Shown here piece by piece: positions 4,621-61,368 of a stretch of DNA of 64,000 nucleotides. The stretch comes from Meghimatium bilineatum (Eukaryota; Mollusca; Gastropoda; Stylommatophora; Philomycidae), in assembly GCA_034231615.1 (NCBI GenBank), contig CM067310.1:7610010-7674009 (forward strand), given 5' to 3'. A program made the translations under genes and the position numbers. The notes below the pieces were generated by a model, which worked only from the letters and a program-made list of their open reading frames with translations, had not been told where the DNA came from and made no database searches. Within the stretch, counting starts at the first letter, position 1. Every line of letters begins with the position of its first letter.

Positions 4621-5345
4621 GCATATCCTATTGCAGATTCTATTACAGATCCTATTGTAAATTATATTACAGATCATATTGCAGATTCTATTACAGATCC
4701 TATTGCAGATTCTATTACGGATCCTATTGCAGATTCTATTACGGATCCTATTGCATATTCTATTACAGATCCTATTACAGATACTATTGCAGATTCTATT
4801 ACATATCATATTGCAGATTATATTACATATCCTATTGCAGATTATATTACAGATCCTATTGCAAATTATATTACAGATTCTATTGCAGATTCTATTACAG
4901 ATCCTATTGTAAATTATATTACAGATCATATTGCAGATTCTATTACAGATCCTATTACAGATACTATTGCAGATTCTATTACATATCATATTGCAGATTA
5001 TATTACAGATCCTATTGAAGATTCTATTACAGATCCTATTGCATATTATATTATGGATCCTATTGCAGATTCTATTACAGATCCTATTGCAGATTCTATT
5101 ACGGATCCTATTGCATATTCTATTACATATCCTATTGCAGATTATATTACAGATCCTATTGCAAATTATATTACAGATTCTATTGCAGATTCTAATACAG
5201 ATCCTATTGCAGATTCTATTACGGATCCTATTGCATACTCTATTACAGATCCTATTGCAGATTCTAATACAGATCCTATTGCAGATTCTATTACGGATCC
5301 TATTGCAGATTCTATTACGGATCCAATTGCAGATTCTATTACGAT
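4621..5345. repeat. Satellite, 12/24-base unit, about 60 units
   Basis: Unit CCTATTGCAGATTCTATTAC plus AGAT. It has no stop codon in several frames on both strands, producing long spurious open frames. Confidence 0.5.
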
Positions 5346-5867
5346 CCTATTAAAGATCACGTTACATATAATACACGTGTACAAATGTACACGTGTACAT
5401 TTTTCCATTAATTTTTATATTTTCCCTGTGTTACCCCAGCCCTCGCATTTCCATTATCGGGTTGTTTTCTGACAACGTATTTTTATCTTTTATATACGTC
5501 CGTGTGTCGTCTCAGTTACACGACGGAGTAGGACGTGTACTTTTGTTAGACTATGAGTTGTCGAGAACTACCTTCTCACAGATAAAGGGGTTATTCCATC
5601 ATCATCATGTGTCAAGAGCTACCTGCTCACAGATAAAGGAATTATTTCATTAGCATCACCATTTATCATTATATAAGTTTCAAACATTATCCCGCGTTTT
5701 CATCTTGCCATCAAACAGACCCATAGATAAGGGAGGAGTTTGGGCTGTTCCTTAGAAAATCTGAACATGATTTTTTTTAGGAAATTTACTAGAATGTCTG
5801 TAAAAACTCCTCTCTTGGCGATTTTTTCCACAAAATGGTCTTCAAATTTTCCATCAAATAGGGAAAT

Positions 5868-16214: not shown

Positions 16215-16345
16215 CTTTCATTCTCAAACTCCCGCTGGATCTCTCTTGTAACAGGACAGCAGTTCTACTAGATTTAATTCTCAAACTCCCGATGGATCTC
16301 TCTTGTAGCAGGACAATTATCCTACTACATTTCTAGTAAGATATA
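16215..16345 (-). mobile_element. SINE-A partial, tail part duplicated
   Basis: Two tandem tail segments (TTCTCAAACTCCCG at 16222 and again at 16281). Lies in the putative ZC3H18 3' untranslated region in sense orientation. Confidence 0.5.
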
Positions 16346-16502
16346 ATCCTGAAAATACATTGTCACCATTTTACTTGCGTAAATGGCCCACCACATACGG
16401 CTTCAGCGGGTGCTATATACAATTAAGAATATATCAACTTCCAGATTTCATGACTAGTAAACCTGTAACAAATTGATGTCAACAGGATAACTTAGTTTTC
16501 TG

Positions 16503-19800: not shown

Positions 19801-22800
19801 GACTAACAAACACAATGTCAATCCTGGATTACATCAGAAGACTAACAAACACAATGTCAATCCTGGATTACATCAGAAGACTAACAAACACAATGTCAAT
19901 CCTGGATTACATCAGAAGACAGCAGATTAAGTGGTTTTCACACGTTTCCAGACTACCATCAGATAGTGCCTACTGGAAGCTTCACTATCTTAACTGGTGT
20001 AAACAAACAGAAAAAAAAAACACTTCTTAAGCATGTATCTCATCAACTGATGCTAAAACTTGCCTGGAGCTAATGTCTGAGCAGGGGACTGAACCATTGG
20101 AAGCTTGACTTTCTTGACTGGTGGATCAGACTCAAATGATGAATCACTGTCCGATATTTCTTGTATGTGAGGAGGAGAATCCAGTGGATTTGGTCGATTA
20201 CCCAGCGGTGAATGCTATTGATCAAATTAAAGCAATTAAGAATAGTGTCATCACGATTGAAAAGCTTGAATAAAGTAAAAGTAGAAGAGTGTCATCTAGA
20301 ATGAAGTGTTTAAATAAGAAATAAATGTAGACAGTGTCATCTAGAATGAAGTGTTTAAATAAGAAATAAATGTAGATAGTGTCATCTAGATTGAAGAGTT
20401 TGAATAGAGTAGAGTAAATGTAGATAGTGTCATCTAGATTGAAGAGTTTGAATAGAGTAGAGTAAATGTAGATAGTGTCATCTAGATTGAAGAGTTTGAA
20501 TAGAGTAGAGTAAATGTAGATAGTGTCATCTAGATTGAAGTGTTTGAATAGAGTAGAGTAAATGTAGATAGTGTCATCTAGATTGAAGAGTTTGAATAGA
20601 GTAGAGTAAATGTAGATAGTGTCATCTAGATTGAAGAGTTTGAATAGAGTAGAGTAAATGTAGATAGTGTCATCTAGATTGAAGAGTTTGAACAAAGTAA
20701 ATGTAGATAGTGTCATCTAGATTGAAGAGTTTGAATAGAGTAGAGTAAATGTAGATAGTGTCATCTAGATTGAAGAGTTTGAACAAAGTAAATGTAGATA
20801 GTGTCATCTAGATTGAAGAGTTTGAATAGAGTAGAGTAAATGTAGATAGTGTCATCTAGATTGAAGAGTTTGAACAAAGTAAATGTAGATAGTGTCATCT
20901 AGATTGAAGTTTGAATAGAGTAGAGTAAATGTAGATAGTGTCATCTAGATTGAAGAGTTTGAATAGAGTAGAGTAAATGTAGATAGTGTCATCTAGATTG
21001 AAGGAGTTTGAATAGAGTACCGCCGAAGACGGATGTGTTGGGCCATTGGCGCAAATAAAACGGCAACACAACGCATTTCCATTCTCTGGACTACATCCAA
21101 CTGGAAATCTTGTAGGACCATTGTCCTGTTACAAGAGAAATCCAGGGGGAATTTGAGAATGAACGCTGAAGAAGAAGAAGAAGAAGAATAGAGTAGAGTA
21201 AATGTAGATAGTGTCATCTAGATTGAAGAGTTTGAACAAAGTAAATGTAAATACTTTCTGCATTTTCAAATATAGTTCTTCTTCAGATTCCATTCTCAAA
21301 CTCCCACTGGACCCTACTATATTTCCAGCAGGATGTAGTCCAGAGAAAGGAAATGCGCGGTGTCACAATTTTATTTGCACCAAAACATCCATTTCAGTTG
21401 AAAATACAGTTCAGTTTCTCTATTGTTATGAGCAATGTTTCTTCAAGCATAAATGAGCTTTTGGTGGTTGATGTAGTTCCTTTAGCTGTGCGCAGGTACT
21501 TCCCAATGATAGTCAGTTCCTTTAGCTGTAAGCAGGTACCTCACAATGATAGTCAGTTCCTTTAGCTGTAAGCAGGTACCTCACAATGATAGTCAGTTCC
21601 TTTAGCTGTAAGCAGGTACCTCACAATGATAGTCAGTTCCTTTAGCTGTAAGCAGGTACCTCACAATGATAGTCAGTTCCTTTAGCTGTAAGCAGGTACC
21701 TCACAATGATAGTCAGTTCCTTTAGCTGTAAGCAGGTACCTCACAATGATAGTCAGTTCCTTTAGCTGTAAGCAGGTACCTCACAATAATAGTTAGTTCA
21801 TTTAGCTGTGAACTGGCACCTCCCAATAGCACATAATCTTTCCGACTTGGTTTACTGTTTCAAAGACACTGTTGGGATTTTGTTGCTTACAGAAATGAGA
21901 GGAAGGTGCTTGAGAATTGTCTTCCCGCTCCACAATACAACCACTTTGCTGAGAATTTAGATAATTTGGTTGGTGACAGAAATGCCACGAGTGGTGATAC
22001 TATCAGGCATATATCCACTAGAATAGACAACATAAACATGCAATTACTAGTGTACACCCATAAAAGAGTTCACGAAACCAACATATATGAAGCACACAAA
22101 AAGGCCATCTCCAGAGAACTTTTCTACCCGTAACACTGCACGGCATAAAGGAAAATGAATGAAAAGAAGGTTGGGATGGATTGGTGCAGACCAGAGAATA
22201 TTTAATTCGCTAGGGGGTTCTGTTAACAACACCTAAAAGGATTCACCGGCTCCTCAGCCCCATTTAGCCTGTTCCTTTACAAGGACCTGTTTGAATTTGA
22301 TAGCCCTTCTAGGATATAGTTCCAACTATATCAAGATAGGCATGCACATGGAGAGTTCATTTTGTTCTACAGGGTAATTCACACAGAGTTTAGTGCTTAA
22401 TGTAATGTGTGATAACAACTAGGGTTAAAGACATCGTACTTCTGTGCTTGTTCTCATATTTCTGTGCTTGTTCTCATATTTCTGTGCTTGTTCTCATATT
22501 TCTGTGCTTTTTCTCATACTTCTGTGCTTTTTCTCATACTTCTGTGCTTTTTCTCATACTTCTGTGCTTGTTCTCATATTTCTGTGTTTGTTCTCATACT
22601 TCTGTGTTTGTTCTCATATTTCTGTGTTTGTTCTCATATTTCTGTGTTTGTTCTCATATTTCTGTGTTTGTTCTCATATTTCTGTGTTTGTTCTCATACT
22701 TCTGTGTTCTCATATTTCTGTGTTTGTTCTCATACTTCTGTGTTTGTTCTCATACTTCTGTGTTTGTTCTCATACTTCTGTGTTTGTTCTCATACTTCTG

Positions 22801-25800
22801 TGTTTGTTCTCATACTTCTGCAGATTAGCAGACCATAGTCCATTGAATAGAAAGCATTGTCATTGTTAACAGCTAAGCTGCTGTATGAGTCTTTTGGCCA
22901 GACACATCCAACGTTAGCATATATTCTAGTTCACATCGGCCTTTTATTGGTGGCCTGATATAGCCAGACTACGTTCTTAGGTTTAAAAGGGCATGCCTCT
23001 GCAAGGGGCTTTAATCCCCTACTAAACAAACCCCTATATGGGATGGGACGGCCATCAAAGCCTCCTTAGTGCTGTGTTTCCAAACGCGGATCCCATGCCC
23101 CATAAGGGAGCAATTTGATTGTTGGGGAGGGGGGGGGAAGAGAGAATTCAAAGAAAAAAAAGTTGTGTACATCAGAGTTTCAGGAAAACATGGTTTTAAA
23201 AAAAAAGTTGGGAAATACTGTATAAGTATTTACCTGCAAGTTTGTCTGTTCCCGAACATATATATTTGTTTTTTTGTTCGACATAACTGATTTGCAGTTG
23301 ATGCCTGTAGTACTTATATATAAGAAAACACAAATAATGAAAGCGTGATGCAGTATCAAGCTGCTGTGAGTATGACCAGAATGTTACAGAAACTCACATG
23401 CTTGGTATCATTGAAGAGTTCAACAACAGAAGTCAAAGTACAATGATAGAAATACAGTGGAATCCCTCTATTGAGCATCCTTTTATAACACATTTCCAGA
23501 CATAACAACACTTTACATAATCCGTAATTATATTTATTGTATATTGTTTGTGCTGTGTATAGCGAATATATGTTATTACATACATATTTTGTCAGTCCGG
23601 ACCAAGTTGTTATAATGGGTAAAAAATAACCAGACATACTTTCTGAGTGACAAATATCCATCATATTAACCAGGTTTAACTTACCTGCAGATAACTGTGT
23701 CATGTCGAGGGGTTCCACTATATATTTTCTTATAGTCTGTGTCATTGGTAATCTGGCCTCACAGCACGTCATGAAACTGGCCTCACGGCACGTGGGACAT
23801 AAGAGCTCCGCCCTCTGTTCCAGCAGCCATTTGACTCGATGGTGTTTCGAGTCTAGCTGTCGAAACAGACGTCGAAATCAGGGCACAACTCTGGCCCTTG
23901 CGACAGTTTTTGTTGTTGTTCCGCCCACCCACGCCGTGCCCGAAGCTAGTTCAAGCACAACATTGGAACAACCAGGTAACTGTTATCGAAGGTTACGAAT
24001 ACGGGATTGTATAGATGACATGCCATGAAGCTTCTATAAGAAGATAACCTCAATATAAAGGCATGTCATCTACTAAGGTTTTTTGTTGCATGGTTGGGGG
24101 TTTGTCTAGTGAGCCATTGGTGAGATCCACAGACGGAACTGCATGCGCAAGTAGTGCTAATCATCTCTGATACCAAAGTTCTCCATGCCAGGCTATCTAA
24201 CATCTCTTTGTCTTCCCCATTCCCCTCTTGCAGTTCAACTTACCTGTTGTCCTGAGAAATTCTTTTATTTAAAAAAATGTTTCAATATTTCAAAACTTCT
24301 GCTGCCTTCCTTCATCGTTCATTCTCAAACTCCCGCCGGATCTCTCTTGTAGCAAGACAATGGCCCTACTAGATTTCATTCTCAAACTCCCGCTGGATCT
24401 CTCTTGTAGCAAGACAATGACCATACTAGATTTCCAGAAGGATGCAGCCAGAGAATGGAAATGCACGGTGTCATAGTTTTATTTGAGCCAATGGTCCGAT
24501 GCATCCATCTTCTGCAGAGTTTCAATAAAAGAAAGACATTCAATGTCTTAGTTGGACATTTATAAATTACCTTTGGTTGCAACGTCAGTCTGATATTAGA
24601 TTTACGCCCAAGCACCTTCGTCTTTACTTGAGTTTGTGGTGCATTTCCATTGGTAAACTTGGACTCTGGTTTTCCTGAAGTTATGATTGGCTGGGTGGGT
24701 TTAGGATCGCTTGGGTGAGGAATCTCATCCAAATTGATATGCAGTTGAACAGTTGAATCTCGTTGCTTTTGTGTACTTAACTGTGACCCCTTCATTGGAG
24801 ACTGGTTTGCACGACTGCCGGCTGGAAGAGTAGATTAATGAAAAATAATAGTCAGTGCCACATCTCATGCAAATGGTTATCTCTTCTATGAAAAAATTTC
24901 TGAATCACCCACCTGTTACTAGGAAGTACATGGAAAAAAGAAAAACAACCAACAAAGATGATCTAACAGAGTATAAATAGATTATTAAAGAAAACAAAAT
25001 AAATTATAATATTGTGGATATTCAATTAAAAAACATGGCATCTTGTTTGAAGGCATTATTTAAAGGTAAAGTTGAGGAGTGGTGAACAAGAGGTAGGCAG
25101 AGATACAAGTGGGAGAGACACATCATGGACAGGATACAGTCTAGACGAGTACACCACCAAGATAAGAGAGAAAAGATGTTGGAGGTCTGTTGCAGCCAAC
25201 CTGCGATGTAGAGGACATCAAATGTTGTCTCCCCTGGCTGCAGGGGAAAAGTTACGTAATTTGTATTGGACGTAGTAACGGTTAAACAATCTGAGATGTC
25301 TCTGTTATCCATCGTTATCTTGGATGGCAAACCTGTTCTCAGCAAATATACATTCCATTATTCTTCTTCTTCTTCAGCGTTCATTCTCAAACTCTCCACT
25401 GGATCTCTCTTGTAGTAGGACAATAGTCCTACTAGATTTCCAGCAGGATGTAGTCCAGAAAAATGGAATTGCGCTGTGTCGTTTTATTTGCGTCAATGGC
25501 CAGACATATCCGTCTTCGGCAGCTTCCATTATTAATTGTCCCATGCTGTTATGTCCCTTTTTCTAGCCGGGGCCAGGAAAGGGGAGCAAAGAACAGTGAC
25601 ACCTTTATATGTCGAGAGATGACAAAGGAGTTCTGAGGTGGTGGAGTTGTCTGTCCCATCCCATATATGGTCAAAGTAATCCAGAAGCTGTGCTGAAGTA
25701 GGATATGTCAGGTCAAAATGTGCAGATATTGCAGCTAAGTTATAAACCATGACACAGGGCACATTGTTCTTTAGGCTACATCCTGCTGAGGAGTAGCCTC

Positions 25801-28800
25801 AGGAGTTTGAAAATGTATGCAGAAGATAATTAGAAAGAATAAATACAATTTAATGCAATACTGTTAATCAGATTACAAAACTCTGGAATGTTAATTAGCC
25901 ATATTCACAGAGGAGATTCTGACAGGACCCTAAGATTCACAGAGGAGATTCTGACAGAATCCTAAGATTCACAGAGGAGATTCTGACAGGACCCTAAGAT
26001 TCACAGAGGAGATTCTGACAGGACCCTAAGATTTACAGGAGATTATGACAGGATCCTAAGATTCACAGAGGAGATTCTGACAGAATCCTAAGATTCACAG
26101 AGGAGATTCTGACAGGACCCTAAGATTCACAGAGGAGATTCTGACAGGACCCTAAGATTCACAGAGGAGATTCTGACAGAATCCTAAGATTCACAGAGGA
26201 GATTCTGACAGGATCCTAAGATTCAGAGGAGATTCTGACAGGATCCTAAGATTTACAGGAGATTATGACAGGATCCTAAGATTCACAGAGGAGATTCTGA
26301 CAGGATCCTAAGATTTACAGGAGATTATGACAGGATCCAGATTTCAATATGTGAACCAAGGGGGTGGAGCCAATGATAAATGGGTGAAGAAATATAGAGA
26401 TGTTGAATGAGGACAAATTAGCCGTTCACTTCATATTATGGATGAGGACAAATTAGCCGTCCGCTTCATATTATGGATGAGGACAAATTAGCCGTTCGCT
26501 TCATATTATGGATGACCATAGATAAGATCAAGCAAAGGTAAGACTTATTGTTTCTTCTTCTTCAGCGTTCATTCTCAAGCTCCTGCTGGATCTCTCTTGT
26601 AGCAGGACCATGATACTTTCTAGATTTCCAGCAGGATGTAGTCCAGAGAATGTAAATGCGTTGTGTCGCCGTTTTATTTCCGCCAGTGGCCCGACACATC
26701 CGTCTTCGGCGGGAGTTTCTTGGTGCCCTAAACGTTAACATGAAAGCATGAGTTTTCTTCATCAAGAGGTGGCTGTGAGTTCAAGATGATGTTCACAAAC
26801 AATGATGTTCTGACTGCTTCATGAAGCAGTGGCCACAAGCTAAGATGTTCAGTATTTCATCAAATGTTGGCCACAAGGTAAGATGTTCACTATTTCATAA
26901 AATGGAGCCCATAAACATAGATGTTCTCCGGCTGTTTCAACAAACGGAGCCCACAAACAATTAAGTTCTTTGGCTATTTCATCAAATGGTGGCCACAAAC
27001 AATGATGTTCTGACTGTCTCATGAAGTAGTGGCACAAACTAAGATGTTCACTATTTCATCAAATGTTGGTCACAAATAAGATGTTCACTGACTATTTCAT
27101 CAAACAGCGGTCATAAATTAAGATGTTCAATTGACTGCTTACAAAAACCATACAAAACGTGTAATCTTTGCTAAAAGCAGCAAAGATGACTACGTCAAAG
27201 AAGAATTCTAACCAAAACTTAAAAATTACATTTAAACTTTTTTCCAGCTGCTGGCGCCCTAGGATGATTGGATGGACTTCCCGCTGATGAACTGGATGAA
27301 CTTCTCAACCGTGAACTTTTACGAGCAGACTTTGAATGAAACGGCTTCCTGCTAGAGCTTCTTGAACGAGATTTACTTGAATCTGAAGAACTGCTATCAC
27401 TGTCCCGTCTTGGTCTAAATGAAAAAATAATATTCTGTAATTTAAAAAATGTATGTGAAAACTGATACCCTGCAATTGATCCCACATAATTTTGAATAGG
27501 GACTACAGTATTATAAAGAACAAGAGAGAAAACTTACCGTGTGTGAAATTAGAAACCTAACAAGGTCAGCAAAAAGAACAAAAAGAGATCACGTGAGGAT
27601 AGCAGAGATTACAAGAACTGTTGGAACATCACTGTAATTAACACCACTGAAATGAAATGTGTGAGACGTATGATTGGAGTTAGCTTGAGAGACAAAATCA
27701 GGAATGAAACACTAAGGAAACAAATAGGAATCAAGTCAGCAATAGAATACATCCAGAAACAACAAGTTAAATGGTACGGCCACATAACCAGACAGAAAGA
27801 GCAAAGTATTATTTTTTTTAAAACACTTAACAAACGATACGAAAACAATCGACCTATTGGACGCCCTCGTAAAAGGTGGATTAGTGTATTAGAGACACTC
27901 GGAAATATAACAGCGGAAGAGGCAAATAGAAGGGCAAAAGACCGTACACTCACTCTCCTCTCAACACCGAAAGGTACATGAGGACAGAAAGAAGAAGTTG
28001 GAATATCTGTGGCCAATTATATTGAGAAGCAGAAACCGCAATGGTTCAGCCACTTAATGGGAATGAACCCTTACTGGCTAGAAGCAAGAACACACAACAT
28101 ACAAATTAGAAACAATGAGAGGCAGAGGAAGACCATGAAGAAGGTGGATTGAAGGAGTTACCAATGTTCAGAGGGTCACAATATTTCTGCATATTAAGCA
28201 ACAAAACGTGCCATAGCCAGAAAACCAATCATTATTCCCTCCTTTGATGCCCTACAGAAAAATCAAAGACAATAGATAGATATTATACAGACATATGTAC
28301 ACATCAGTGTATACATAAATTATGAAACCAACCTAGCATTTGGTAAATATCAAGTTAATTATAAAGGTTACTAAATAAAGCCTAACTATCAATATAAATC
28401 AATCAGACATAACAATAAAAGAAAGACAATGTTCAAAGTGTTGATCTTATTGGGACCTTTGTCAGGAAACAAAAACCAATTAAGACAATATAACTATAAA
28501 AAGAGATACTTTGCATTTCAATCTCATTATTTTTCCCAAACCCAGTTCTGTCTGTCAATATTGAACGCACCTAATTTTGCACCTAATCTCAAAGCTGCGA
28601 CAAAATGGCCACTTTGGCAATAGTTTTTGTAGGGAAACCATTGTCCAAGTCTTGACGTTGTATTTTTAAAGTTGTGTTGTCTTAATCGGTTTTTGTTTCT
28701 TGACATCCGCCGAAGACGGATGTGTCGGGCCATTGGCGCAAATAAAACGGCGACACAACGCATTTCCATTCTCTGGACTACATCCTGCTGGAAATCTAGT

Positions 28801-31800
28801 GCGGCCATTGTTCTGCTACAAGAGAGATCTGGCGGGAGTTTGAGAATGAACGCTGAAGAAGAAGTTTCTTGACAAAGGTCCCAATAGGACCGACACGTTG
28901 AAAATTGTCTTTGTTCTTTATTGTATTGTTATTTCTGATTTATTTATATTCATAGGCTATATTCAGTGACCGTTATAAATAACTTCATATTTATCTCTTA
29001 TTTGTCTGGGTAATGCGGCACTTTCCATTTTGTCGAACATCCTCCAATTTTTAGGTTACTCATATTTATACAGATGTACACATCAGTGTATACATAAAAT
29101 ATTAAACCAACCTGGCATATGGTAATGGCCTGTCGGGGGGCGACAGAGCTCTTCGCCAAGTTCTGTCTCTGCTTCTACCTCTTGAATCCCTCCCAGTGTA
29201 ACTAAAACCAGCATTAGCACTATTATAGTTGCTGCCGTGTTCCTGTCGGTAATGGTCACCAGCTTGATAACCAGCAGTATATATTCCTGGGGCGCTATAT
29301 AACACATCACCTCTTAGTTGTTCTCTGAAATATTGCCCATAATTAAGCTAAACTAGAAATCTAATAAAGTAAGATGAAAATAATAATGGTTGAGTTTGTC
29401 GCTCTAGTTCTCTATGCCAGGATTTACTGCTATAGACAAGCAGATGTTTGCCAAATTGAAAAAGCAGATATGTTTGCATTAAATGCTGACAGTGAGTTTA
29501 AAAAACAGATATGCTTGCATCAAATGCAAGTATAATCAGCAAATTTAAAAAGCAGTCTTGTATCAAATGCTTGTCTTTCTCTATGTGACGTGCCCTTTAC
29601 AGAACATTGTCCTCACTGCCACTCTGTACGCCTCTCGGTTCTGTGTTAGCTGCTCAGCTTCTTCCAGTGTCATGTTCAGGAAGTCTTCGATGTCATGTGT
29701 CCATCGTAGTCTTGGTCTTCTTCTTGTTCTCTTTCTCAGAACTTTTCCCTCCATGATTAATCTTTCTAAACCACTCTCTCTTTATATGTCAGAAATGTGT
29801 TAGTTTGCGTTTTTTTTTATAGTTTTGAGGAGCTATTCTTCCTCTATGTTCAGATTTTTGTGGACATCTGTGTTGATTCCTCTTTCTGTTCATATTCTTG
29901 GGACCTCTTTATAACATTTCATTTTGAATGCTAAAGCTTTCTTTTCCATTTCAGAAGTTATTGCCCAATTCTCACTTCCATATGTTGCCACTGAAAAGAT
30001 ACAGCTTCTTAAATAGTTATAACTTTGTTTTTTTGTTTGCCCCTTTGCCATAGATTTTTTTATCTGTGATGTTTTTGTAGGCATTACTAATCTCTTCTGA
30101 GCAACCTCATGTTGTGTTGATGGTTGACCCGAGATATTCAAAGTTGCTGACATTTTGTAGGTCTTTGTCAATGACTATTGTTGGTGTGAGTTCATCTCTG
30201 CTGATATATATTATTTTTGTCCTTTTTTTTTGCATTGAGGATAAAACAAATGCACGTATTAGGTATGTTGATTATCATCTTTGCAAACCAGACAAGTCCA
30301 TAGGTGCTCTGATCTCCGCTTCAGTAAATCTCTCAGGGTATAACGGCTGATTGTTCCAGTTCTTTGTTGGTTTACCACTCTTTTTGAAATCTTTGTCCGG
30401 AGTTCTCTTCGTGCCTCGCCCATCCTCACTCCCAATTCTTGCATTCTTGATATTGACTCATGTTTATTCATCTTAAAATCCTCCGATCGTGAGGACTCAC
30501 GAAGAGCAGCGAGTATGTCTGCTCGGTCCATAGGCTGACCATCTGTTGTGGTGGCGAGACTAGCTAATTTGTCAGCCCGTTCGTTTCCCTCCACGCAGCA
30601 AGTCAGGGGACAAAAATAAGCGTGAGTTTTCGTAGTGATGCCTGCATTTTAGCTCCCTCCAATGACTCCACCCATTCCCTATGTACATCACCTGTTTTGA
30701 CTTTCTGAATCATATTCAGTGAATTGAATGTATAGTCAATGAATTGAAAAGGCAGATAGACGCATAAAATGCACAGATAGTTATTGAAATGAAAAAGCAG
30801 ATAAAGGTATATCCCATGGCAGCAACCTGCCGTCGGAGATGAAGATAACTCTTCATCTACTATGGTAGCCAGTTCCCTTCCTTGCTGTCTTTACCGCCCA
30901 CAAGTCACGCTTCAGGTACTCATTTACAGCTGACTGGACTGGAGGAGTGGTCGTGTCAAGTGAGAAATCACAACCTGGACTTTTTATTTGTTTGGACATG
31001 GTTTTGAATCGGGCACGCTGTAACCCTGTGGTAGCAAGCAAGCTTGCAATAAACAAGACTACAGCATTCCCCATGCATGCGGTTGTTTCTGTGGGTCTAC
31101 CCATGCAACAGAAAACCTTAGTAGATGACATGTCATTATATTGAGTCTCCTATGGAAGCTTTGTAGCATGTCATCTATACAATTATAGACCCCCTCTTAG
31201 TAAAAGACTCCTTCAATAGGCATTGCACTAAGCCGAAGTCTCCTGGGTATGAAAGAAAACTCAGAAAAACCACCCCACTGCACATGGGAAGTAAGAGCTA
31301 ATCGCTCGCAATTCCTGGGATTCTCAAATCGTGCTCCCCGAAACAGCAGATAGGCATGCATCAAATGCACATGTAGTTAGTGCAATGAGAACGGATAACG
31401 GGAGCTCAAGTATTAATCTCTCCACGTCTGCAGTGAATGACAAACTCTCACAACCAAACAGCATATTAGAAAGAACAAGTGAGTTATAAATTAGGCAAAT
31501 TAAATACAAATCTAATAACAAATATATTCTATTCAGACCTACCGAGATGGGGAAATATAACGGCCAAATCTGTCTACAGCATGAGGTGCAGGTTTCGGGG
31601 ACCGTGACCTACTGAAACATTGGTAAATAAATGAAACAATATCAATAGATGGCCAAATCAGATATTAAATAAAACCACACAAAAATATAAAAGAATTGAA
31701 TAAGTTGGATATTTAGTGTTTCAGGATTTTCTTTTCACCTTCTTCTTCCTCATTCTCATGTCAGAGTCGTACGCTAATATCATCATCATCATGTGATGTC

Positions 31801-34800: not shown

Positions 34801-37800
34801 ACAAGGAATAACTAAGAACAAATCTAGATAAAAATGTATATAAGAAATATGCAATAAAACAAAAAAGACAATTTTCCTACGTTGCGGTCCTATTGGGACT
34901 TTTTTCAAGAAACGCATACAAAAAAAAAACACCACATCATTTTTTTTATCAAGTCATTATAGCAGTTAATATATTTATGGTTTGGTGTTTTTTTTTAGTT
35001 TTTTGTGTGTGTTTCTTGAAAAAAGTCCCAATAGAACCTCAAAGTAGGAGAATTGTTCTGTTTTATATATATTTCTTATATACCTTTTTATCTAGATTTG
35101 TTCTTAGTTAGGTATTCCTTGTAACCTGTTTATCTTATTTTGCATTACTATTTGTCAAAAAAACTTGTTTCCCCATCATGACCATAATCCAATTTTTGCA
35201 ACATTTTATCTCAATATTATTAATGTGCAGACAAGATACTTCATTATTTGTACACATTACATTACACCCATAATCCTTAAGTGTCATTGGGGATAGGATG
35301 CCACTCTGAAAACAACACAAAAATTGTGTATGAGTCCGTTTTCCATTCTTTGTTTAAGTATGGAGAATCTTGTGTGTGTGTTTGAGCAAATATCTATCCA
35401 ATCTCTCTTGTAGCAGGATGTTCCTACTAGATGTCGAGCGGAATGTAGTCCCGAAAATGTGTTGTCTCGCCGTTTTATTTACACCAATGGCCCAACACAT
35501 CCAACTTCGACACTACTATCTCACAGCAAAAAAAGTATTGAAAATCTCATAAATTTCATCATATTTCACAGAGAAAAATAAAATCGATTTTCGAACAAAA
35601 GTATGGCCAATATTATGACGTGACAAAATCACTAATACGTTATCAATCTCAATAACAATTTCAATAACTTTAATCTGCATACTCCCAATTGTGATATATG
35701 GATGTGAATTTTTGACAAGTATTCACAAAGTTAAAAACAAAATTGCAGCAAGCAAATGTTCTAGAAGAATGTTCAGAATATCATAAATCAAACGCCAGGG
35801 TGTTGTCGAGACCCGAAAGGGGAGCAAAGAATAGCAACACCATTTACCTTCCATGCAGGTCGTAATAGGAGAATAAGGAGGTTATTGGATGGAGTTGGCT
35901 ATCCCATCCCATATAGGGTCAGTGACCCAAAGCCATGCTGAAGTCGGATGTGTCAGGCCGAAAGGCACTGAAATCACAGCAATGCTGTAAACCATGACAC
36001 AATGCATTCCGTTCTCTGGACTACATCCTGCAGGAGTTTGAGAACGAACGCAGAAGAAGAATAGACCAAAATGATCACCAATAAGGATACTTCAGATTTA
36101 AGCACATTCCAGGTGAACAGAAGAAGACCATTAGGGACAGTCTGAAAGGATTGAAAGTAAACTGGATAAACAACAATATTTTCTAGAATATTCTAATATT
36201 TTGACTATATCAAACAACATAACAGGTTAGAAAAAATCATAATGAAGAGGATGTGAGTGCAACAAAAAAGAGGTAGGCATTGAAGATGGACAAGATATAT
36301 AAAAAAGACCACCTGAACATGACACAGAAGCAGGAAGATTGGCCCAAGATCAGTGGGAATTTTGCGAGGCTGCGATGACCTACATCCTGTCCAGGATATC
36401 CTACCTGATGATGATTTTTAGAAAATCAGTTATAAGCCTGACCTAAATAAATATAAAGATAAGCAATTGCAATATGCCAGTAAAAATATGCTCTTTAAGA
36501 AAATTATCAATACCTTGTCCAGGGATCTGTCCATTCTTCAGGCTGTTTCAGAGGTGATGTGTATCCACGTGAAAATGGAGGTTCCCCTGGTCTATAAGGT
36601 TGTCGTAAGTCAAGTCTATCTTGCTCAAACCTAAAAGAAATTAAACACAGAATATCTTCATGTCAGTCAAGAAAGTATATAAACTTTCAGTCTCAAACCT
36701 GTGCTGGCTAGCAGGATATGATCAGGAATATGTTCCGATTTGCTGTTTCTTTGACTTCGTTATCATAGTCAGACACTATATGGATTTCTTCAATGAACTG
36801 TGTTGTGGTCACCAACCCATGACGGACAGTAGAGCTTCGATCAGTTATTTCGGATGGCCAGTTGTCTTCTTGTAGTGTCCTACAATGGGAAATTCTATCA
36901 AATATGATGTGCTGCTTTCTGCAGATTGTCCACAGGAGCAGATATCGGTGTCACTCCAAACTTCCGGTACATTTACTCTTTGTGATGATGTGGCTTGTTC
37001 TCCATCTAAAAATACCAAGCTTGTGGATCACATAATTTCTTTGGCTATATAAGAGGTGAGTTTGATTCCATTTCCATCAGCTTCTGATAGCGGACTTCAT
37101 ATCTGCAAATGATAGTGTCTTCTATAAGATGTTTGCAAGTTACTTCCAGTTTTGACTAGCTGTTGTTGGTTGCAATATCAGCAACTTTTGGCCAGATGCA
37201 TTAGGCTTCAGCCTATCATTCTGGGCTCCTGTGACTTTCAATGGGATTGGCTAATAAACCCTTCTTTATTTGCCTCTTTCAACATGCATGGTAGATTGCA
37301 ATATTAGTATTATTTTCTCCTGCTTCGGGTCAGGTAATATACAGGCAATGTATTATGATCCCAGTTCTGAAAGTAAACAACAGCACAAGTGATTGCATGG
37401 ACAGGACCGTTGTCCTGCTCAATGTCCCGCAGAACATATCAAGAATGTCCCCAGTATGCAGATCTGATAAACATGACATGGCCCACCCCAATCAGTGTTG
37501 AAGAGAAACTGTATGGCACAGTGGACACTCTAAAACAGACAGCAGCCTATATAATAGAATCCGGAGTCCCAACCTGACTGAGTATTGATCGCCGAAGAAG
37601 AAGAAGCTCAATGTCCAGACCAATCTTAGTTTTCAATCTCTGTTATCTGGACTAAGCCCCATCTCCACTTCACGGAGTTGGCGGCGATGAGGAGAAAAGA
37701 ATTTTTTTTTAAACATTCATTACTGTTATAATTTTCCTGTTAATAACACATCCATATTTAGTGATGAGAAGGATGCAGAATAAGAAAAAAAGTCAGAGGA

Positions 37801-43800: not shown

Positions 43801-46800
43801 ACCTGGTTACAAACATATAACCAATGTTTAATTAACATCTTCCGCTGAAGACGGATGTTTCGGGCCATTGGCACAAATAAAACGGCGACACAACGCATTC
43901 CCATTCTCTGGACAACATCCTGCTTGAGATCTAGTAGGACGATGGTCCTGCTACAAGGAAGGTCCAGCGGGAGTTTGAGAATGAACACTGAAGAATGAAC
44001 ATAAGAGTATGGAAAGATAAACACATTATAACATTGCAAGGATGCAACAAAAACTGTACAAGATCAAAATACCTTATGATGTAAAACAGAATGCAGCAGA
44101 AATATACCACCGCAAGAGGACACAAGTTTCTTGCTAGGAGGCCAAAAGCGATGATGGCCCATGCTCCTATTGGAGCAAACAAAGTGTATAGGGTTAAAGT
44201 AGCTACCACGGCTCTATTGTATAATGTATCTATTTTACCAAGTTAAAACAAAAAATGAGCCATCCAGCACAAGTGATGGAGACAACTGTTCCATTTACTC
44301 GATGCCAACAAATTCTTGGTTTTTTTATTTTTCTTATCTGGCTGTGATATCTGCACCTTTCAGCTTGACACATACAACTTCATCATTTCATTATTCATTA
44401 ACTTCTGCGTTCGTTCTCAAACTCCTACAGATTAGCAGAATGTAGTTGAAATATACGAACAAAGAAAATTGGATGAACAATGGGCCATGGGAAACACTTG
44501 GGAGGGAAATCTATAAATATATGACCAGCCCAAATCCTAAAGACAACATCAACCTCCTGGGAAGGAAAGACCAGAGTATCATATTCAGACTGCGCACACA
44601 TGTACAGCTTAACAATCACCTGAACAGAATAAAACCACAACACAGTTCAAGGTGCCGTATGTGCACTTATCCCTATGAAACTGTTGACCACCACCTTTTT
44701 GAATGCCCAGCGCTGGATGACATCAGGAAAATGCTTCTCCCTCCAGAGCCAGATAAATGAAACATTATATATGGAACAAAACAACAGCTCACAAACACAT
44801 GCATATATCACACAATGGCATTGGGTCAAAGGGCATGAGCCCATGGACCGCTGGATCAGCATCCAACCAACCAGCAGAATAGAATGCGTTGTGTCATGGT
44901 TTACAGCATTGCTGCACCTTTCATCCGGCTTCAGCATTGCTTTGGATCACTGACCCTATATGGGATCGGACAGCCAACTTCATCACATAATCTCCTTAGT
45001 CGCTTCTTATGACATGCATGGAAGGTAAACAGTGTTGTTATTCTTTGCTCCCCCCTCTGGTGGCAACACATGGGCGATTCAGTATCTTTAATCTTCTATG
45101 CAATTTGGTAACCAACCCTAGGATGAAATTAATGTGGCTAACGTGAAAATCTTCCCTCAAATATAGATCTGTCCATGGGGGCCCCCCCCAAAGAGGAGCA
45201 TAGAATAACACTATTACTACTATGCGTGTCATATATGGTGACTAAGGAGGTTTTAGGGTGGAATTGACTGTTCAATCCCATAGAGGTTGAAAGTGACTCA
45301 GAAGTCGTACTGAAGTGAGGAAATTAACATGGAAAAGATGGGAAGTTTTGCTACTTCCAGTCTACAACATCAATATATCTCAATGTGACTTTAATTTGTT
45401 TGGACTCTTAAAGAAATCTAAAAAGGGACAATGATTTCACTCCAATGAAGATGTTATGACAGCTGTGACCAAATGGTTTAGTGAGCATACTATGGGTAAG
45501 TCCTGTGATGGAATTCACTGTCTGCCCAAACAGTGGGATGGATGTTTGAATGCGTAAGGTGGGATGCAAAGAGTTCCGCATTGCTCTCATGTGGACCCAG
45601 GGTTAGATTCCGGATCATTGCTCTCATGTGGACCCAAGGTTAGAAGATAAAGTTAAAAGCACCTACTTGTCGTGCACCCCAGAAACCGACTGTTTCGAAG
45701 CTCATTCAAAGTAAAGCCAACGCTGTATGGATCATGTCCAGACAGTATAGATTGAGAAGGAATGAGATTTGTTTGCATATGACAACAAGATCTTTGAATG
45801 ACATCACTTGGTCCCCACAGCCAAAATATGCAGCAGAGCAAGATAGCGTCTAGCCTGAACTTGCAGGGCTGTTGCAAGCTCACGGACATCTAGAATCATG
45901 AGTAAGTCTCCGGAGCAGTAAGACTAACATATTGAGTACAATGAGAGGGAACTACAGCATTAGAGGGAGTGTCGTGCAAATATAATGGAGAAAATGCATG
46001 GAAATTGTGACTGAAGCATTATTCAGCACGACAACAAGCTTCCAGTTACATCTAAGCAGAATCATGGAAACGAAGCAACAAATTCCCAACTGGTGCTCCT
46101 AAATATGTGTAGTGACTCAGACTTGGACAAAGTGTTCACGATGTCGGTGAATGATACCTCAGCTAAGACATTGAATGAACCGGAGCCCAGCTTTACTGTA
46201 GAGTGTTTCTTATAGTGGAATCATGCTCACAGACAAGAAAAGATTCAGTACCCGGGGGGGAGGCACAGGGACAATGCATTTAATTATGTGAGACAAGTTC
46301 ACTGGTGTCAACACCTCGTGCGAGATAGACGTAGTTGGCCCAAGTTTAAATCTCAGATTCTCGCCTTCTCAGAGAATGCCACCAAGAGATATTTTTTGGC
46401 CTGTAAAATCCAAGAGCATGGTGGGTGATAAACCGTTATGGTGGAGAGTTGACACACATTCGCCACCTAGTGACAGATAGGAAGGCTGCCACAGGCTACG
46501 GAAGCTCACATAAATTAAAAGCATGCTGAAAACTGATGTTCTGGGCCAGAAGACAAAAAAAACTGCTGTGAATCCAGCAGCACAACATACTTCATACTCA
46601 CCGATGGAAATCACATGGATTGTTGTGTTGGTTATCAGATAGTGAACCGCAGAAGAGGAAAAATGCATGACTTCTGATGACTCCAGGTGCAAACAAGTTC
46701 CCTAATAAATGCTTTACTAAATTATAACACAACTCGCTCGGATGTTGCCAGGGCCCGAAAGGGGAGCAAAGAATAGCAACACTATTTACCTTCCACGCAT

Positions 46801-49800
46801 GTCGTAAAAGGCGACTAAGGAGGTTATGGGGTGGAGTTGGCTGTCCCATCCCATATAGGGTCAGTGACCCAAAGCTATGCTGAAGTCGGAAGTGTCAGGC
46901 CAAAAGGCACAGATATCGCAGCAATGCTGTAAACCATGAGACAACGCATTCCATTCTCCGGACTACATCCTACTAATCTGCAGGAGTTTTAGAACGAACC
47001 CAGAAGAAGATAACACAACTACTGATGTACCTCTCCTATTCGTGTAATGAACGGCACATGGCCAGGCTTCATCTGAAACCGCTTCGCACAAAACATGTTA
47101 CAGTTACCAGAATTCCAACAACATATAAAGTGCTTCTACACAAAGTTATGTCTAACTGGGATCGACAAAATGATTGGAAACAGAACAGGATGTAAAGATA
47201 TGTGCATTTTGTGATAATTTACTTACGCTCAGTTCTCCCTCGTCTTTGTTCAACATTTCAACCTGAAATATTCCAAGAAATATGAAATATCAGTTTTTAA
47301 AACAACGTGATATGGAATTAATTTCTGAAAAATAATAATACTAATAAAGGAGTTAATTTCTGAAAAATAATAATAATAAAGGAGTTAATTTCTGAACAAT
47401 AATAATAATAACAATTGTATTCCTCCACTGAACATCATAGTCGCCCATCTGTTACTGAGGTGCAAAAGAATGCCACCAACAGACATATTTTGGCCTGTAG
47501 AATAGCAACACTTTACTTTCCATGTACGCCGTAAGAGGTGACTAAGAAAGTTATGGGGTGGAGTTGGCTGTCCCATCCTATATAGGGTAAAAGTGACCTA
47601 GAAGTCATATGTGTCGGGCCAAAAAGTGTAGATCTCAAGATGAGCACCCGAGCCTTCATTTTTTCCACTGAACACAGATCTCACAATACTATGTCGTAAG
47701 ATTAAAAGGCAAGGTTCTCTTTCCGAACGTACCGGGTAGTCTTCCTTATGATCTCCTGAAATTCCATGGGTCTCTGGCAAGTTGTCCTGCTTCCTCTAGA
47801 GACGTGTATGCATTCCTGAATATCTCTTGTCCAACAATGTCTTGGTCATTCTCTGCCTCCTATACTCCCCTTCAACAACACTCTTTCCATGCTGTTTTGT
47901 CTCTTCACATAGCCAAAAACACGCAACTTTCTTCTTAATTAGGCATTTAAAAGCCAGCATTCTTAAACGTTAATTTTTTTTTAGCACTTCTTGGTTAGTC
48001 TTTCTTGCAGTCCATCGTATTCTTGGTATTCAATAATACATGTTAAAGAAAAACTTCATTTTGAAGGCCTCTATTCTCTTCGCTGTAATTTATTTATTGT
48101 CCATGTTACTCAGATGTAGGTCGACACACACATACATGTATGTAACTAGAATACCGAAAATTTCAACATCACATGGCATGAACTATAAGATGAAATGATT
48201 GACAGCACATGAAATAGACGACTGGAAAAATATGATAGCCAATACCACACGGTATAGACTATAAGAAATGAATGACAGTAAAAAAAATAGAAGAATGGAA
48301 AGATATGATAATCAACGTCACATGGCATGGACTATAAGAAAAAGTTAATGACAGCACATGAAATAGATGGCTGTGGAAAGACATGACAACTAAGGCCACA
48401 CGGCACGGACTATAAAGAGACGAAGTAAAGTTGTAGTCTTGTTTGTTTGTATCCATCTTGCAATACATTTGTTTTTTATGTTTGCCCCTTGCAATAGACA
48501 TTACATTTGGGCAGGCAGCAGAAACTACAGAGTGTATACTTCACGAATCTCTGAAACATGATATGCCGAGTCACATACTGGCTGATAGAAACGACACTAG
48601 AATCAAATCTCTGTGGATATCAAAGGTGAGCTACAAAAGACAGAATTACAATCAATTGTGGACACATTTCAAGTGAATGATAGAAAAAGATAAAAGTTAG
48701 GCCATTACTAATCTCTACTGATCAATCTCCAATGGTGTTACTGGTTGATCTGAGATATTCAAAGTTGTTGATGTTACGAGATAGAGACTAAATGCATTTC
48801 ATAAATTTTGGGTGCAGAACTAAATAAATAATAAAAAAATTTGTATTTACCTGCTCTTGACTGCCATCTTCTTTTCCCTGCACCTCAGAAACAACCGTAA
48901 TATTAATTGATTTGTTATTATCGTTCCCTTCGATGTGAGATGAAAAATCTTTTTCCGTCTTTGCATCCACACTCAAATTTGTATTTACAATATTAGATTT
49001 TTCAAATAAATTCTCACTAGATGGATTCTCTGATAAACTGTCACCAAAAGTGACAAAATCTAGATTAGTTCCTTCGTGTTCCTCGCCAATCTTTTTTATA
49101 AATCCGGAAGAAGTTATCAGTGTGTTTGATGATGTGTTCTTACTAGACAAGTTCATTTTAAAATCACCTTCTTTATCAGATTCTATGATATTTATAGATT
49201 TCAGACTCTCATCTTCAAAACTTGTCAACTGATTAATGTTGCCACTCTTATAATCTGACACGGCTTTTTTATCTCCTAAGAGGCCATCAATCTTCTTTAC
49301 AACTAAATGATGAGTGCTTACATTGACAAGGTTATGAATTCCACAATTTTCTTCACTTTTCTCATAATTCGATTCAACTTGCTCCACATTACCCTTATTA
49401 AATAATGATTCTGTCGTTACAGTTGTCAGTGGCATTGTCAAGGATCCAAGCGGTTTTTCAAGTAGATATGCGGGCAAACCATATCCAGCATTGGTTGTTT
49501 TAATAGGTACATCAGATGAGACATTGCTGCAACAAAAATCACTGGTTTCACATATAACAGATGCAAGTGAATTGTCTGGTGCCATTTCAGATTTAAGGAC
49601 TTTGCAAAAGAAGCTTTGAGCATCATTTTCAGAGGTCTTCATGTGCTCCCTATCTTGTAATAAAATTTGAACATTCTCTGAAGCAGTATCCACATTAACG
49701 ACGTCAGATAACTTCGCATCTGAAAGACCAGCTATACCTTTGCTATAAGCTTCATTCTGTTGATCACCAGTATTCTCTAGGCTGCCGTTATTTGTGGAAA

Positions 49801-50359: not shown

Positions 50360-50388
50360 TTTCACTATCACAAATGAAGCATATTTTA

Positions 50389-50640
50389 GGACTACTTCTT
50401 GATTCACTTAAAATATGTCTATGTGTCTTTGTTTCAATAAACTTCACTGTCTTGTGCAGCGCATACTGCAGGGATCCATAAAGCTTCGACTCTAGTATTC
50501 CTATGGCCAGCACATTTTTCTAGCAAAGTACTATTGTGCTTTTGGTTTAGACATCTGGCACAACAATTATTGCCTTCAATAACAGAGAACTCTGGCAATT
50601 CTTCCATAAGGTATGAAGTATTTCTTGGTCTTTTCACATT
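50389..50640 (-). pseudogene. Old LINE C-terminus immediately upstream of the ZC3H18 start
   Basis: The minus strand reads CARCLN...HRNTRVEALW, then ESKLYGSLQYALHKTVKFIE, then a degenerate AAGTGAATCAAGAAG tail ending about 30 bases before the ATG at 50359. Same strand as the gene, so it would form part of the 5' untranslated region or proximal promoter. Confidence 0.5.
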
Positions 50641-56109: not shown

Positions 56110-57050
56110 TTAATGAAGTTTAGCTTTTGGTCTAAACGTCATTTTGGTTGTGTTTTCATACCATGTAGGGCCACAAAAAGACAATGACTAAAAATCTGGT
56201 AAACATCTGAACGTTTGCAAACATGGATGTCGGAGAGTTACTTTCGTTTAAGGTAAATTATTATATTTGTTCAAATGACTCCCAACTCCTGAATATAATT
56301 ATATTTCATTTATTTTTAACTTGTATATGACACTTATTTATTGCAGCAGCTATTGTATTAAGAATACAATAAAGGTGGTTTTATTTTTGGGTAAAAATAC
56401 AATTATAATTCCTACGATGTCTCACGACTGGAGGCTGGACCTGAATTCAGATTGAGAATGAAAATTGAATGAATGGGCCTACCCTACTACACTACACATA
56501 ACACACTAGTACAGTGCACACACTTTATTTTATTGATTTATAATACACAATTGAACAATCATTCAATAAGTATAAGTTAAATCATTCAACTTATTGTGAT
56601 GGTTAGTGATTTACATTTTATTGTCCAGTCAGTCACAGTAAAGTAATTATAAAATAAATTTATTATAAATAAATGGAAAGAACTGAAGATTTTGTCAAAT
56701 GAGAGGATGTGTAATGAAGAGGAGAACACTACACTAGTAGCATTAGTATAGTACTCAAAATACTTATCTGATACTGTTACTGAAGTGTACGTACTTAGTA
56801 CACTGTACTCTGCAGGGAGTTGAAAACTCTTCTACTAGTTGTAGTAGGCCCCTGTATGATTTATCATTATATTAGAGCACTAGGACTAGGGCCTAAATAA
56901 ACATGTTGGCAGCAACAGAGGATGGGACAGATTCATTGGGCAATAATCTAGTAAAATAATCTAGGCTAGATGTACCCAATGTATACTAACTATAGTGTAC
57001 ACCATACAATATACTGTACATTGCCACCTGCCCCATCATGGCAACCTTCT
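56110..57050. other. No gene seen
   Basis: AT-rich, repeat-poor DNA left of the LINE. Confidence 0.5.
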
Positions 57051-57055
57051 TGAAG

Positions 57056-57205
57056 TGGAGACGGATTTAGTTCAGCCAACAGAGGCAGGAAACTAAGACT
57101 GGTCGGGCCATCTCTTACATAGAGCAGGACCACAGTCCTGACCAAGCAAGTACAGGTGCTGAAGTTGGAGATACCAGGCCGAGACGTGCACTGTATAAAT
57201 AGTGG
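57056..57205 (+). repeat. Extra 5'-end module of the same LINE family
   Basis: Resembles 57338-57480 (TTAGTTCAGCCA, GGAAACTAAGACTGGTCGGG, GAGCAGGACCA, GTCCTG, GTGCTGAAG) but lies outside the target duplication and is not followed by coding sequence. It is either a solo 5' fragment or a short non-autonomous relative. Confidence 0.5.
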
Positions 57206-57304: not shown

Positions 57305-57317
57305 ACTATGAAATACT
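57305..57317 (+). repeat. Target-site duplication, left copy
   Basis: ACTATGAAATACT, identical to 61369-61381. It defines the 5' terminus of the element as 57318. Confidence 0.5.
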
Positions 57318-57326
57318 CTCCATCGA

Positions 57327-57445
57327 GACCAGCACCGTGCAGAGGTGATGGGGCTTAGTTCAGCCATCAGGGGCTGGAAACTAAGACTGGTCGGGCAGTC
57401 CCACTCGAGCAGGACCATAGTCCTGCCCTAGTAAGCAGAGTGCTG
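57327..57445 (+). other. Structured 5' end of LINE RNA
   Basis: The following pairings are visible. GACCAG (57327) pairs with CTGGTC (57387) and encloses CTTAGTT (57354) pairing with AACTAAG (57379), with a further CAGCC/GGCTG helix inside. A separate perfect hairpin GCAGGAC-CATA-GTCCTGC lies at 57409-57426. GCAC (57332) could pair with GTGC (57440). The order resembles HDV-like/Pr77 ribozyme-promoter ends of trypanosome LINEs, but the junctions are not canonical, so function is speculative. Confidence 0.5.
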
Positions 57446-57486
57446 AAGACGGAGGCATCCAGCCAAAAGGCGCACAGATAATCAGG

Positions 57487-60576: not shown

Positions 60577-60582
60577 GTCAGA

Positions 60583-61338
60583 GTGTACACAGATGGGTCA
60601 GCACAGAATGCTGTGAGGAATGGAGGTGCAGGTGTATATATAGAATATCCACACAAGCCTAGAGATACAATCAGAACACCGACAGGAAAATTCTGCAATA
60701 ATTATGATGCAGAAATCCAGGCAATTAGTGTGGCAGCTAAAAAACTGCTGAACTCCAACTCTGACCTACAGCCTGTGGTATTCCTGACAGATGCAAGGTC
60801 AGTGCTTCAAGCTCTCCAGTCTGGAAAACTAACAGACTTAAAAAAACTACTTAGCGAATTGTCTTACCAGTATAGGGTAACCATGCAGTGGATACCCTCT
60901 CACTGTGGAATACCAGGAAATGAAAAAGCAGACCAACTGGCTAAGGAAGGTGCTGCCGAAGACCAACCAGATATACCAATCACCTACCATCAGAAAAAAC
61001 AGATGATAAAGTCAACAAGAAAGCCACAAACACCAACACAAGATGACTATCACAATATGAACAGATCAGAACAAGTTATAATTCTACGTCTCAGAACAGG
61101 ACACAACCGACTCCGCAGTCACATGTATACAAAGTTCAAGATTGGCAACACGGCCATGTGTACATGTGGACAGGCAGCACAGAGTGCCAAACATATACTT
61201 CAAGAGTGTTCTGAGCATGAAACGCTGAGGCAGACATATTGGCCAGAGGAAACAACACTGGAATCAAAGCTCTATGGGACACTGTATGAACTACAAAAGA
61301 CAGTGAGTTTTATTAAGGAGACAGAATTACAGATATAG
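60583..61338 (+). CDS. LINE RNase H and C-terminal zinc knuckle (same frame after TAG)
   Basis: Continues the upstream frame after one TAG; 60583 is a GTG, not a convincing start. RNase H catalytic residues are present: YTDGSA (D4), DAEIQA (E44), LTDARS (D70), and SHCGIPGNEKADQLA (H107, D117). A knuckle C-X-C-X8-H-X4-C follows at residues 193-209. The frame ends in ELQI-stop about 30 bases before the GAA tail. It could be made by stop readthrough, reinitiation, or not at all if the TAG is a mutation. Confidence 0.5.
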   Translation: MYTDGSAQNAVRNGGAGVYIEYPHKPRDTIRTPTGKFCNNYDAEIQAISVAAKKLLNSNSDLQPVVFLTDARSVLQALQSGKLTDLKKLLSELSYQYRVTMQWIPSHCGIPGNEKADQLAKEGAAEDQPDIPITYHQKKQMIKSTRKPQTPTQDDYHNMNRSEQVIILRLRTGHNRLRSHMYTKFKIGNTAMCTCGQAAQSAKHILQECSEHETLRQTYWPEETTLESKLYGTLYELQKTVSFIKETELQI

Positions 61339-61368
61339 ACATGTTTCAAGTGAACGAAAGAAGAAGAA

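Follow-up and report, generated by a model that had tools for sequence, protein, structure and literature searches.

Introduction

In trypanosomatids, the long interspersed elements (LINEs) ingi and L1Tc are described as carrying a ribozyme like that of hepatitis delta virus (HDV) at the 5' end and as having truncated short partners, RIME and NARTc (PMC4035085). Ingi sequences are reported to be numerous in some gastropods (PMC11203168). We analysed a 64,000-nt stretch of the genome of the gastropod Meghimatium bilineatum (GenBank assembly GCA_034231615.1, contig CM067310.1, positions 7,610,010 to 7,674,009 of the forward strand; hereafter the window), which contains a LINE, LINE1, and copies of two families of short interspersed elements (SINEs), A and B. 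The original prediction for this window, made from its letters alone, held that the SINEs derive from the LINE and share both its ends, as in the ingi/RIME pairing. We consider it probable that A and B, with a third family, D, are modular SINEs that carry a LINE leader domain and are moved by LINEs of the group formed by LINE1 and its sister family LINE2.

Parts of this arrangement are already known: LINEs that have truncated partners and carry an HDV-like ribozyme at the 5' end (PMC4035085, PMC3414825) and, in animals, short internally deleted elements (SIDEs) (PMC6740152). In Drosophila, R2 and R2/R1 SIDEs join the 5' ribozyme to the LINE 3' end and are thought to be moved by full-length elements; they are site-specific elements of the ribosomal DNA, and the available part of that account, unlike the situation here, reports no separate SINE group with a leader domain (PMC3414825). 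Persaeus/Zenon, a CR1 SIDE system in Lepidoptera, pairs an animal LINE with internally deleted elements that are abundant; it belongs to the CR1 clade, and the accessible text mentions neither a ribozyme nor a domain common to other SINEs, in which it differs from the elements here (PMC6740152). The ingi/RIME and L1Tc/NARTc pairs have their likeness in LINE1, LINE2 and internally deleted LINE2 copies. Unlike RIME, A, B and D lack the LINE 5' end and instead have in common with the LINEs a second, downstream leader domain, which we call domain 2.

The V, CORE and Deu SINE superfamilies have modular heads and tails around one conserved central domain. A, B and D are alike in their modularity; here, the domain is found also in a LINE 5' untranslated region (UTR), with covariation in its stem. 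The V-SINEs are described as a superfamily with a conserved central domain (PMC6887750). In the open-access literature searched, we found no report of a SINE group with a covarying domain common to a LINE 5' UTR, nothing on point for an HDV-like ribozyme with SINE and mollusc, and nothing on LINE-derived internally deleted SINEs beyond the systems cited above.

Results

We refer to the family of the copy at 28706-28863 as B (the SINE-A of the original prediction, as judged from its hairpin) and to the longer SINE as A; copies were sought in the whole genome (1.61 Gb, 32 contigs). The B copy at 28706-28863 (forward strand) is the complete short element it had been taken for, flanked by the 11-nt target-site duplication (TSD) GTTTCTTGACA at 28695-28705 and 28864-28874. 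At least 40 genome matches to B were listed at 99-100% identity (10 at 100% and 30 at 99% among the 40), from the scored part of 1393 first-look candidates. A full-length A copy lies at 46735-47009 (forward strand, TSD ATAACACAACT), and at least 40 genome matches to A were listed from 4867 candidates. Thirty fetched A copies are 95.8-99.2% identical to their own consensus, the closest pair being 99.6% identical; because the A query is itself about 5% diverged, the search may have passed over the youngest copies of A. The count of about 29 copies in 64 kb was close: A and B match the window at 30 places covering 5,089 bases, 28 of them at least 100 nt long. Both families are short and non-coding, with no open reading frame of 150 or more amino acids over them, and both have a tail and TSDs.

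LINE1 occupies 57318-61368 in full length (forward strand) between copies of the 13-nt TSD ACTATGAAATACT at 57305-57317 and 61369-61381. Pfam recognises APE, RT and RNase H domains in its product; the reading frame of this copy is interrupted by an in-frame stop between the last two. All 40 LINE1 heads among the matches listed (from 2022 candidates) are 100% identical, 38 spanning the full query and two spanning 401 of its 403 nt. A search with a 204-nt LINE-head consensus listed 41 matches from the portion of 5470 candidates that was scored; 20 stretches were read, and nine of these continue into sequence matching the LINE1 protein and represent LINE2.

A single segment of about 56-70 nt, domain 2, is common to A, B and the LINE1 5' UTR. 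It lies at 57441-57496 in LINE1 (forward strand, stem 57454-57460 with 57485-57491), at 28708-28762 in B (forward strand, stem 28721-28727 with 28751-28757) and at 46878-46948 in A; B opens with it, and in A and D it is internal. Its consensus opens with GCYGAA(G/A)NYRGA and a 7-nt strand, continues with R, GCC-loop-GGY, GCA and a loop whose length varies, and closes with a second 7-nt strand, complementary to the first, and AYGYA. The open frame of LINE1 has its first ATG at 57487, inside the 3' strand of the domain; the start matching that of LINE2, judged by eye, is 57514. The proposed match of GCYGAAG..CGGA..GGCGCA to the LINE at 57441-57480 was borne out: A aligned with the LINE1 head at a local score of 21 (shuffle maximum 15, 0 of 1000 shuffles) and B at 15 (5 of 1000). 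Against the LINE2 head, A scored 24 (0 of 1000).

The stem of this domain covaries. Among five sequences (LINE1, LINE2, the head-only type C1, A and B), all 50 of 50 pair cells are standard, and six of the ten pairs change on both sides, all six within the 7-bp stem; no shuffle of 500 equalled the number of cells paired or the covariation score, and two of 500 equalled the number of pairs changed. Adding D gave 60 of 60 cells paired, all 42 cells of the 7-bp stem among them. In this stem, six of the seven pairs change on both strands (7 of 500 shuffles), and cells paired and covariation score were again equalled by 0 of 500 shuffles. As a control, sliding the partner strand by one to three columns left 23-43% of cells paired. 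The loops had been trimmed by hand because a first MAFFT alignment of four domains misplaced A, whose loop is longer.

Covariance models also linked the SINEs to the LINE leader. Model R1, built from five sequences with a B sequence among them, matched the B copy at 28706-28863 at an E value of 1.2e-8. Model R2 was built solely from LINE1, LINE2 and C-type head sequences, and gave 27 matches in the window up to E 5, of which the 16 best (E at most 0.029) all fell in LINE1, one C-type copy, A or B. The best SINE match was at 35936-36006 in the A copy at 35793-36059 (forward strand; E 9.3e-8). The best B value was 7.2e-5, in the copy at 21021, followed by 8.9e-5 in that at 26657; the copy at 28706-28863 gave 0.018.

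SINE D was found through R2, at 2064-2116 of stretch L013 and 50-102 of stretch L019 (both E 6.8e-4). In L013 it spans 1991-2420 (430 nt, reverse strand, TSD ACATGTCTTGGC): a long head of its own comes first, domain 2 follows, and the 3' end reads GAGCGAACGC before an A-rich tail. In L019, it occupies 1-414. D aligned with A at a score of 23 (0 of 1000 shuffles), with B at 16 (1 of 1000) and with LINE2 at 15 (8 of 1000). A distant relative (70%) of part of D lies in the window at 46122-46331 (forward strand). Between the 3' ends of D and A, only an 11-nt stretch aligns (GAGCGAACGCA/GAACGAACGCA). A, B and D look like one modular SINE group, a grouping that draws on domain 2 and, weakly, on this 11-nt stretch.

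Taken together, domain 2 looks like a folded RNA domain that is homologous between the SINEs and the LINE leader. Its folding energy has a z score of -2.48 in LINE1 and -1.77 in C1. Several results weigh against this interpretation. B is not significantly similar to the LINE2 head (111 of 1000 shuffles) or the C head (104 of 1000), nor D to LINE1 (977 of 1000), and the D and A 3' ends do not match significantly (163 of 1000). Further pair types in the domain are within chance in both the five-sequence (297 of 500) and six-sequence (389 of 500) sets. The stem was picked by eye before testing and the loops were trimmed by hand, and the tests comprise six sequences that are non-independent, LINE1, LINE2 and C1 being related to one another, as are A and B. 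By folding energy alone, with z scores of -0.63 for A and -0.40 for B, the domain gains no support in either SINE, and B has a lowest-energy fold other than that of domain 2. Separately, a second pseudoknot in domain 2 (TGCTG/CAGCA) was considered and rejected: it is absent in LINE1 and at chance level in LINE2 (1560 of 10000 shuffles) and A (3336 of 10000), with lower shuffle counts in D (907 of 10000) and B (90 of 10000).

The LINE leader and the SINEs might each have taken domain 2 from a structured host RNA. From family to family, six of the seven stem pairs differ in sequence, and D and B alone match LINE1 or LINE2 weakly, as such independent capture would allow. Against it, no Rfam family reached its gathering score in the window, and the best weak match within the elements, the Giardia snoRNA GlsR16 over domain 2 of A, is far from it (19.7 bits against a gathering score of 100, E 0.04); nor was any match recognised as a host RNA gene in the sequence scanned, namely the surroundings of mobile elements, where weak matches were partly inspected. 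We regard independent capture as unlikely.

Outside domain 2, A and B have little in common with LINE1. The A head of about 140 nt is without a match to the LINE head, and the last 60 nt before the tail resemble those of LINE1 at chance level (A, 699 of 1000 shuffles; B, 469 of 1000), so that the idea of SINEs sharing both LINE ends does not hold; of the GAACG-(n)-tail ending ascribed to them, GAACG and the (GAA)n tail do agree with LINE1, and agreement is confined to these. A LINE-like hairpin had also been proposed. The LINE1 leader does contain AGGACCATAGTCCT at 57411-57424 (forward strand), upstream of domain 2; its counterpart in B lies downstream of domain 2 and is thus not collinear. 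The exact form AGGACCATTGTCCT occurs once in the window, at 21114 in the B copy at 21020-21174 (forward strand), and the hairpin is degenerate in the 28706-28863 copy (GCGGCCATTGTTCTGC). With the LINE descriptor described below, no HDV-like fold was found at the start of A or B (offsets 0-2).

These results bear on the possibility that A and B are internal-deletion derivatives of LINE1, as RIME is of ingi. That origin would fit the common domain at 57441-57480, the similar GAACG(n)(GAA)n ends and the lack of a tRNA head, and RIME-like elements do arise from LINE2 in the same genome (see below). Because the A head, the 3' parts and the hairpin order fail to match LINE1, however, A and B are not LINE1 minus its middle; B, moreover, starts within domain 2 and not at the LINE start. 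Where RIME has both the 5' and the 3' end of its LINE, in A and B the internal domain alone matches. We therefore hold a deletion origin of A and B to be very improbable, and for LINE1 it is largely refuted.

The pairing with ingi/RIME does have a counterpart here, in LINE2. In three of the 20 stretches read (L098, L103 and L091), a LINE2 head is joined by eye to a LINE2 3' end between TSDs (ACTATTGTTTCC, ATTGGACACTAT and ACTATAGAACA, respectively), so that both LINE ends are present, as in RIME. The junctions differ, which indicates that internal deletion of LINE2 is recurrent. RIME-like elements thus exist in this genome separately from A and B, as internally deleted copies of LINE2. Two further stretches (L092 and L100) hold, by eye, head-only insertions with TSDs. 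For full-length LINE2, we fetched the expected 3' end for five heads and found a matching TSD in two (L102/L128 and L097/L130); among the remaining three, one has an end of similar type (L086/L127) and two are without the expected end in the stretch.

Old heads of the C type, similar to those of LINE1 and LINE2, are also present. C1 elements end near ACATGTCTTCACAACAA in several of 35 stretches. A C-type head lies at 57030-57190 (forward strand), just upstream of LINE1, and is perhaps what the original prediction counted as part of the LINE. A second copy, at 37617-37692 (reverse strand), is separated from its continuation at 37381-37417 by an insertion, which is the 3' end of another LINE (37428-37606, TTGATCGCC(GAA)n) and has, by eye, the TSD CTCAATGTCC.

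The absence of tRNA boxes, noted from the letters alone, was confirmed. ARAGORN found no tRNA in the window or at five loci, and RNA polymerase III (Pol III) A and B boxes were no better than in shuffles in the A head (214 of 500), the whole of A (346 of 500) or B (439 of 500). By ARAGORN, Rfam and the box scan, A and B lack the Pol III head derived from tRNA, 5S or 7SL RNA of a SINE in the strict sense. The length, TSDs and simple tails of A and B would suit ordinary Pol III SINEs whose head has decayed; with box pairs at shuffle level, no tRNA and no Rfam match, we give that explanation the slightest of chances.

Insertion sites are consistent with LINE-mediated mobilisation. TSDs were found for 18 of 20 LINE1 copies (mean length 12.7 nt), 24 of 30 A copies (11.6 nt; one TSD is only 6 nt) and seven of eight B copies (11.0 nt); in the two LINE1 copies without a TSD, the expected end is missing from the stretch. 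A T stands two bases before the nick in 14 of 18 LINE1, 17 of 23 A (one short case excluded) and five of seven B insertions, with a window background of 0.28. A purine after the nick was dropped as evidence, since the purine tail partly forces it.

The element ends bear on which LINE is the driver. LINE1 ends in GAACGAAA(GAA)n, and six LINE2 ends read GAACGA (two), GAATGA (two), AAACGA (one) and GAAGGA (one). LINE4 is known from one 5'-truncated copy (L037) and is 42% alike to LINE1 over 79 amino acids at the C-terminus. Its end, GAACGCA(GAA)n, is also that of A, whose final 7 nt ahead of the tail fit LINE4 better than LINE1. On this comparison, the driver is probably a LINE of the LINE1/LINE2 group, not necessarily LINE1. 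Tail identity was rejected as proof of the driver, because several LINE families here end in (GAA)n. (GAA)n tails and T-rich nick sites are common among such LINEs and do not single out a driver, which also counts against assigning A and B to this group. The homologous leader domain, LINE-type tails, TSDs and lack of a tRNA-type head make the dependence of A and B on LINEs of the LINE1/LINE2 group well supported. Two ends of another repeat, at 9605 and 18931 (CACCCGTAAAGGGT..GGAAGGAAA(GAA)n), are likewise GAA-tailed.

The first nucleotide of LINE1 begins a predicted HDV-ribozyme-like double pseudoknot (57318-57392, forward strand). It is nested, with a 7-bp P1 from the first base (57318-57324/57347-57353), P2 (57327-57332/57387-57392), a 3-bp P3 (57334-57336/57344-57346) and P4 (57360-57365/57372-57377), and a putative active-site C at 57381. 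HDV-like ribozymes have this C in J4/2 within the motif CNRA; LINE1 and the C head have CTAA before the P2 3' strand, a short motif that is part of our descriptor. For P1.1 (L3 with J1.1/4), the only option by eye is a two-pair AG/CU. The descriptor, composed after the fold had been seen, fits nucleotide 1 of LINE1 and of the C head; dinucleotide shuffles of the two fit in 2 and 1 of 20000 cases, respectively. In the window, 79 of 127730 positions fit it.

Six stem positions differ between LINE1 and LINE2 with all 16 P1-P3 pairs kept, an outcome matched in 97 of 200000 random six-substitution trials. Eighteen of 38 heads read retain all 16 pairs and the remainder have scattered changes; in one (L088), a deletion breaks the ungapped pair count. 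In 16 heads chosen from the 38, 94% of cells pair (2 of 500 shuffles), the covariation score was reached by 3 of 500 shuffles, three pairs change on both sides (35 of 500) and further pair types were at 101 of 500. Two results speak against a ribozyme: Rfam gives no HDV match for the LINE heads, and three other window positions score at least as high as the 22 of LINE1 (23844, 23; 37104 and 42582, 22 each). Because of these scores, the weight of the proposed fold lies on its exact start and covariation. LINE1 and LINE2 look as though they start at the first nucleotide with a putative self-cutting HDV-like RNA.

The position of domain 2 relative to this leader also concerns the direction of transfer. 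A LINE ancestor could have acquired the domain from a SINE, for example by a template jump, and kept it in its leader, and the modularity of the domain in the SINEs, with three different 5' arrangements in A, B and D, would agree with that. Yet it sits at the same place relative to the ribozyme-like leader in LINE1, LINE2 and C1 heads, and this constancy suggests that it is old in LINEs too; we consider transfer from SINE to LINE doubtful.

Some further features of the window were recorded. Two separate B copies (24318-24434 and 16224-16356) carry a 57-nt direct duplication of the same region. An array at 22437-22820 comprises 19 copies of a 20-mer and adjoins an A copy, whose 3' end the 20-mer repeats in reverse complement; we read this as a SINE tail that seeded a satellite. 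A LINE1 3' fragment ends at 4617, and 8 nt past its tail begins a 24-nt array of about 30 copies (4625-5351). An open frame of 539 amino acids lies at 48788-50407 (reverse strand).

Discussion

In the modular arrangement that we favour, A, B and D would be short retroposons in which domain 2 is followed by a 3' part with GAACGC just before a simple tail. The domain would have its homologue in the 5' UTR of LINEs with APE, RT and RNase H (LINE1 and LINE2), immediately ahead of the coding region. Copying would proceed by target-primed reverse transcription, with enzymes of the LINE group accepting GAACGnn(GAA)n ends. The HDV-like leader, whose shape is supported, probably trims the LINE transcript so that it starts precisely at the first base of the element. 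Loss of the LINE body would then give rise to short elements that retain the leader, the real counterpart of ingi/RIME, as seen in the LINE2 sequences.

Domain 2 most likely binds the LINE protein or aids assembly of the copying particle, a role suggested by its retention in elements that code for no protein. A role in translation alone would not explain its presence in B, which consists of domain 2 and a 3' part, has no long open frame and is yet among the youngest elements. A tentative extension is that domain 2 is a 5' handle by which the LINE protein recognises its own RNA, and that A, B and D, as parasites, exploit this handle at the front of the LINE RNA and not the 3' tail alone, with the stem free in sequence and kept in shape; we put this forward only as a speculation. 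The nearest precedent in the available parts of the literature is R2Bm, where a structured element near the RNA 5' end is reported to act on the LINE enzyme by promoting top-strand cleavage, while in R2Tg the 5' UTR is described as dispensable for cutting (PMC12222951). Domain 2 is, by comparison, known from sequence alone.

The same genome holds LINEs that probably begin with a ribozyme, LINE copies with internal deletions, and SINEs whose heads are unrelated. As all three kinds of element coexist there, the routes by which LINE parasites arise may be compared within a single genome. On the general view, SINEs exploit LINEs chiefly by way of a common 3' end. A covarying RNA domain present in a LINE 5' UTR and in three SINE families that differ in their 5' parts would suggest a second site of recognition.

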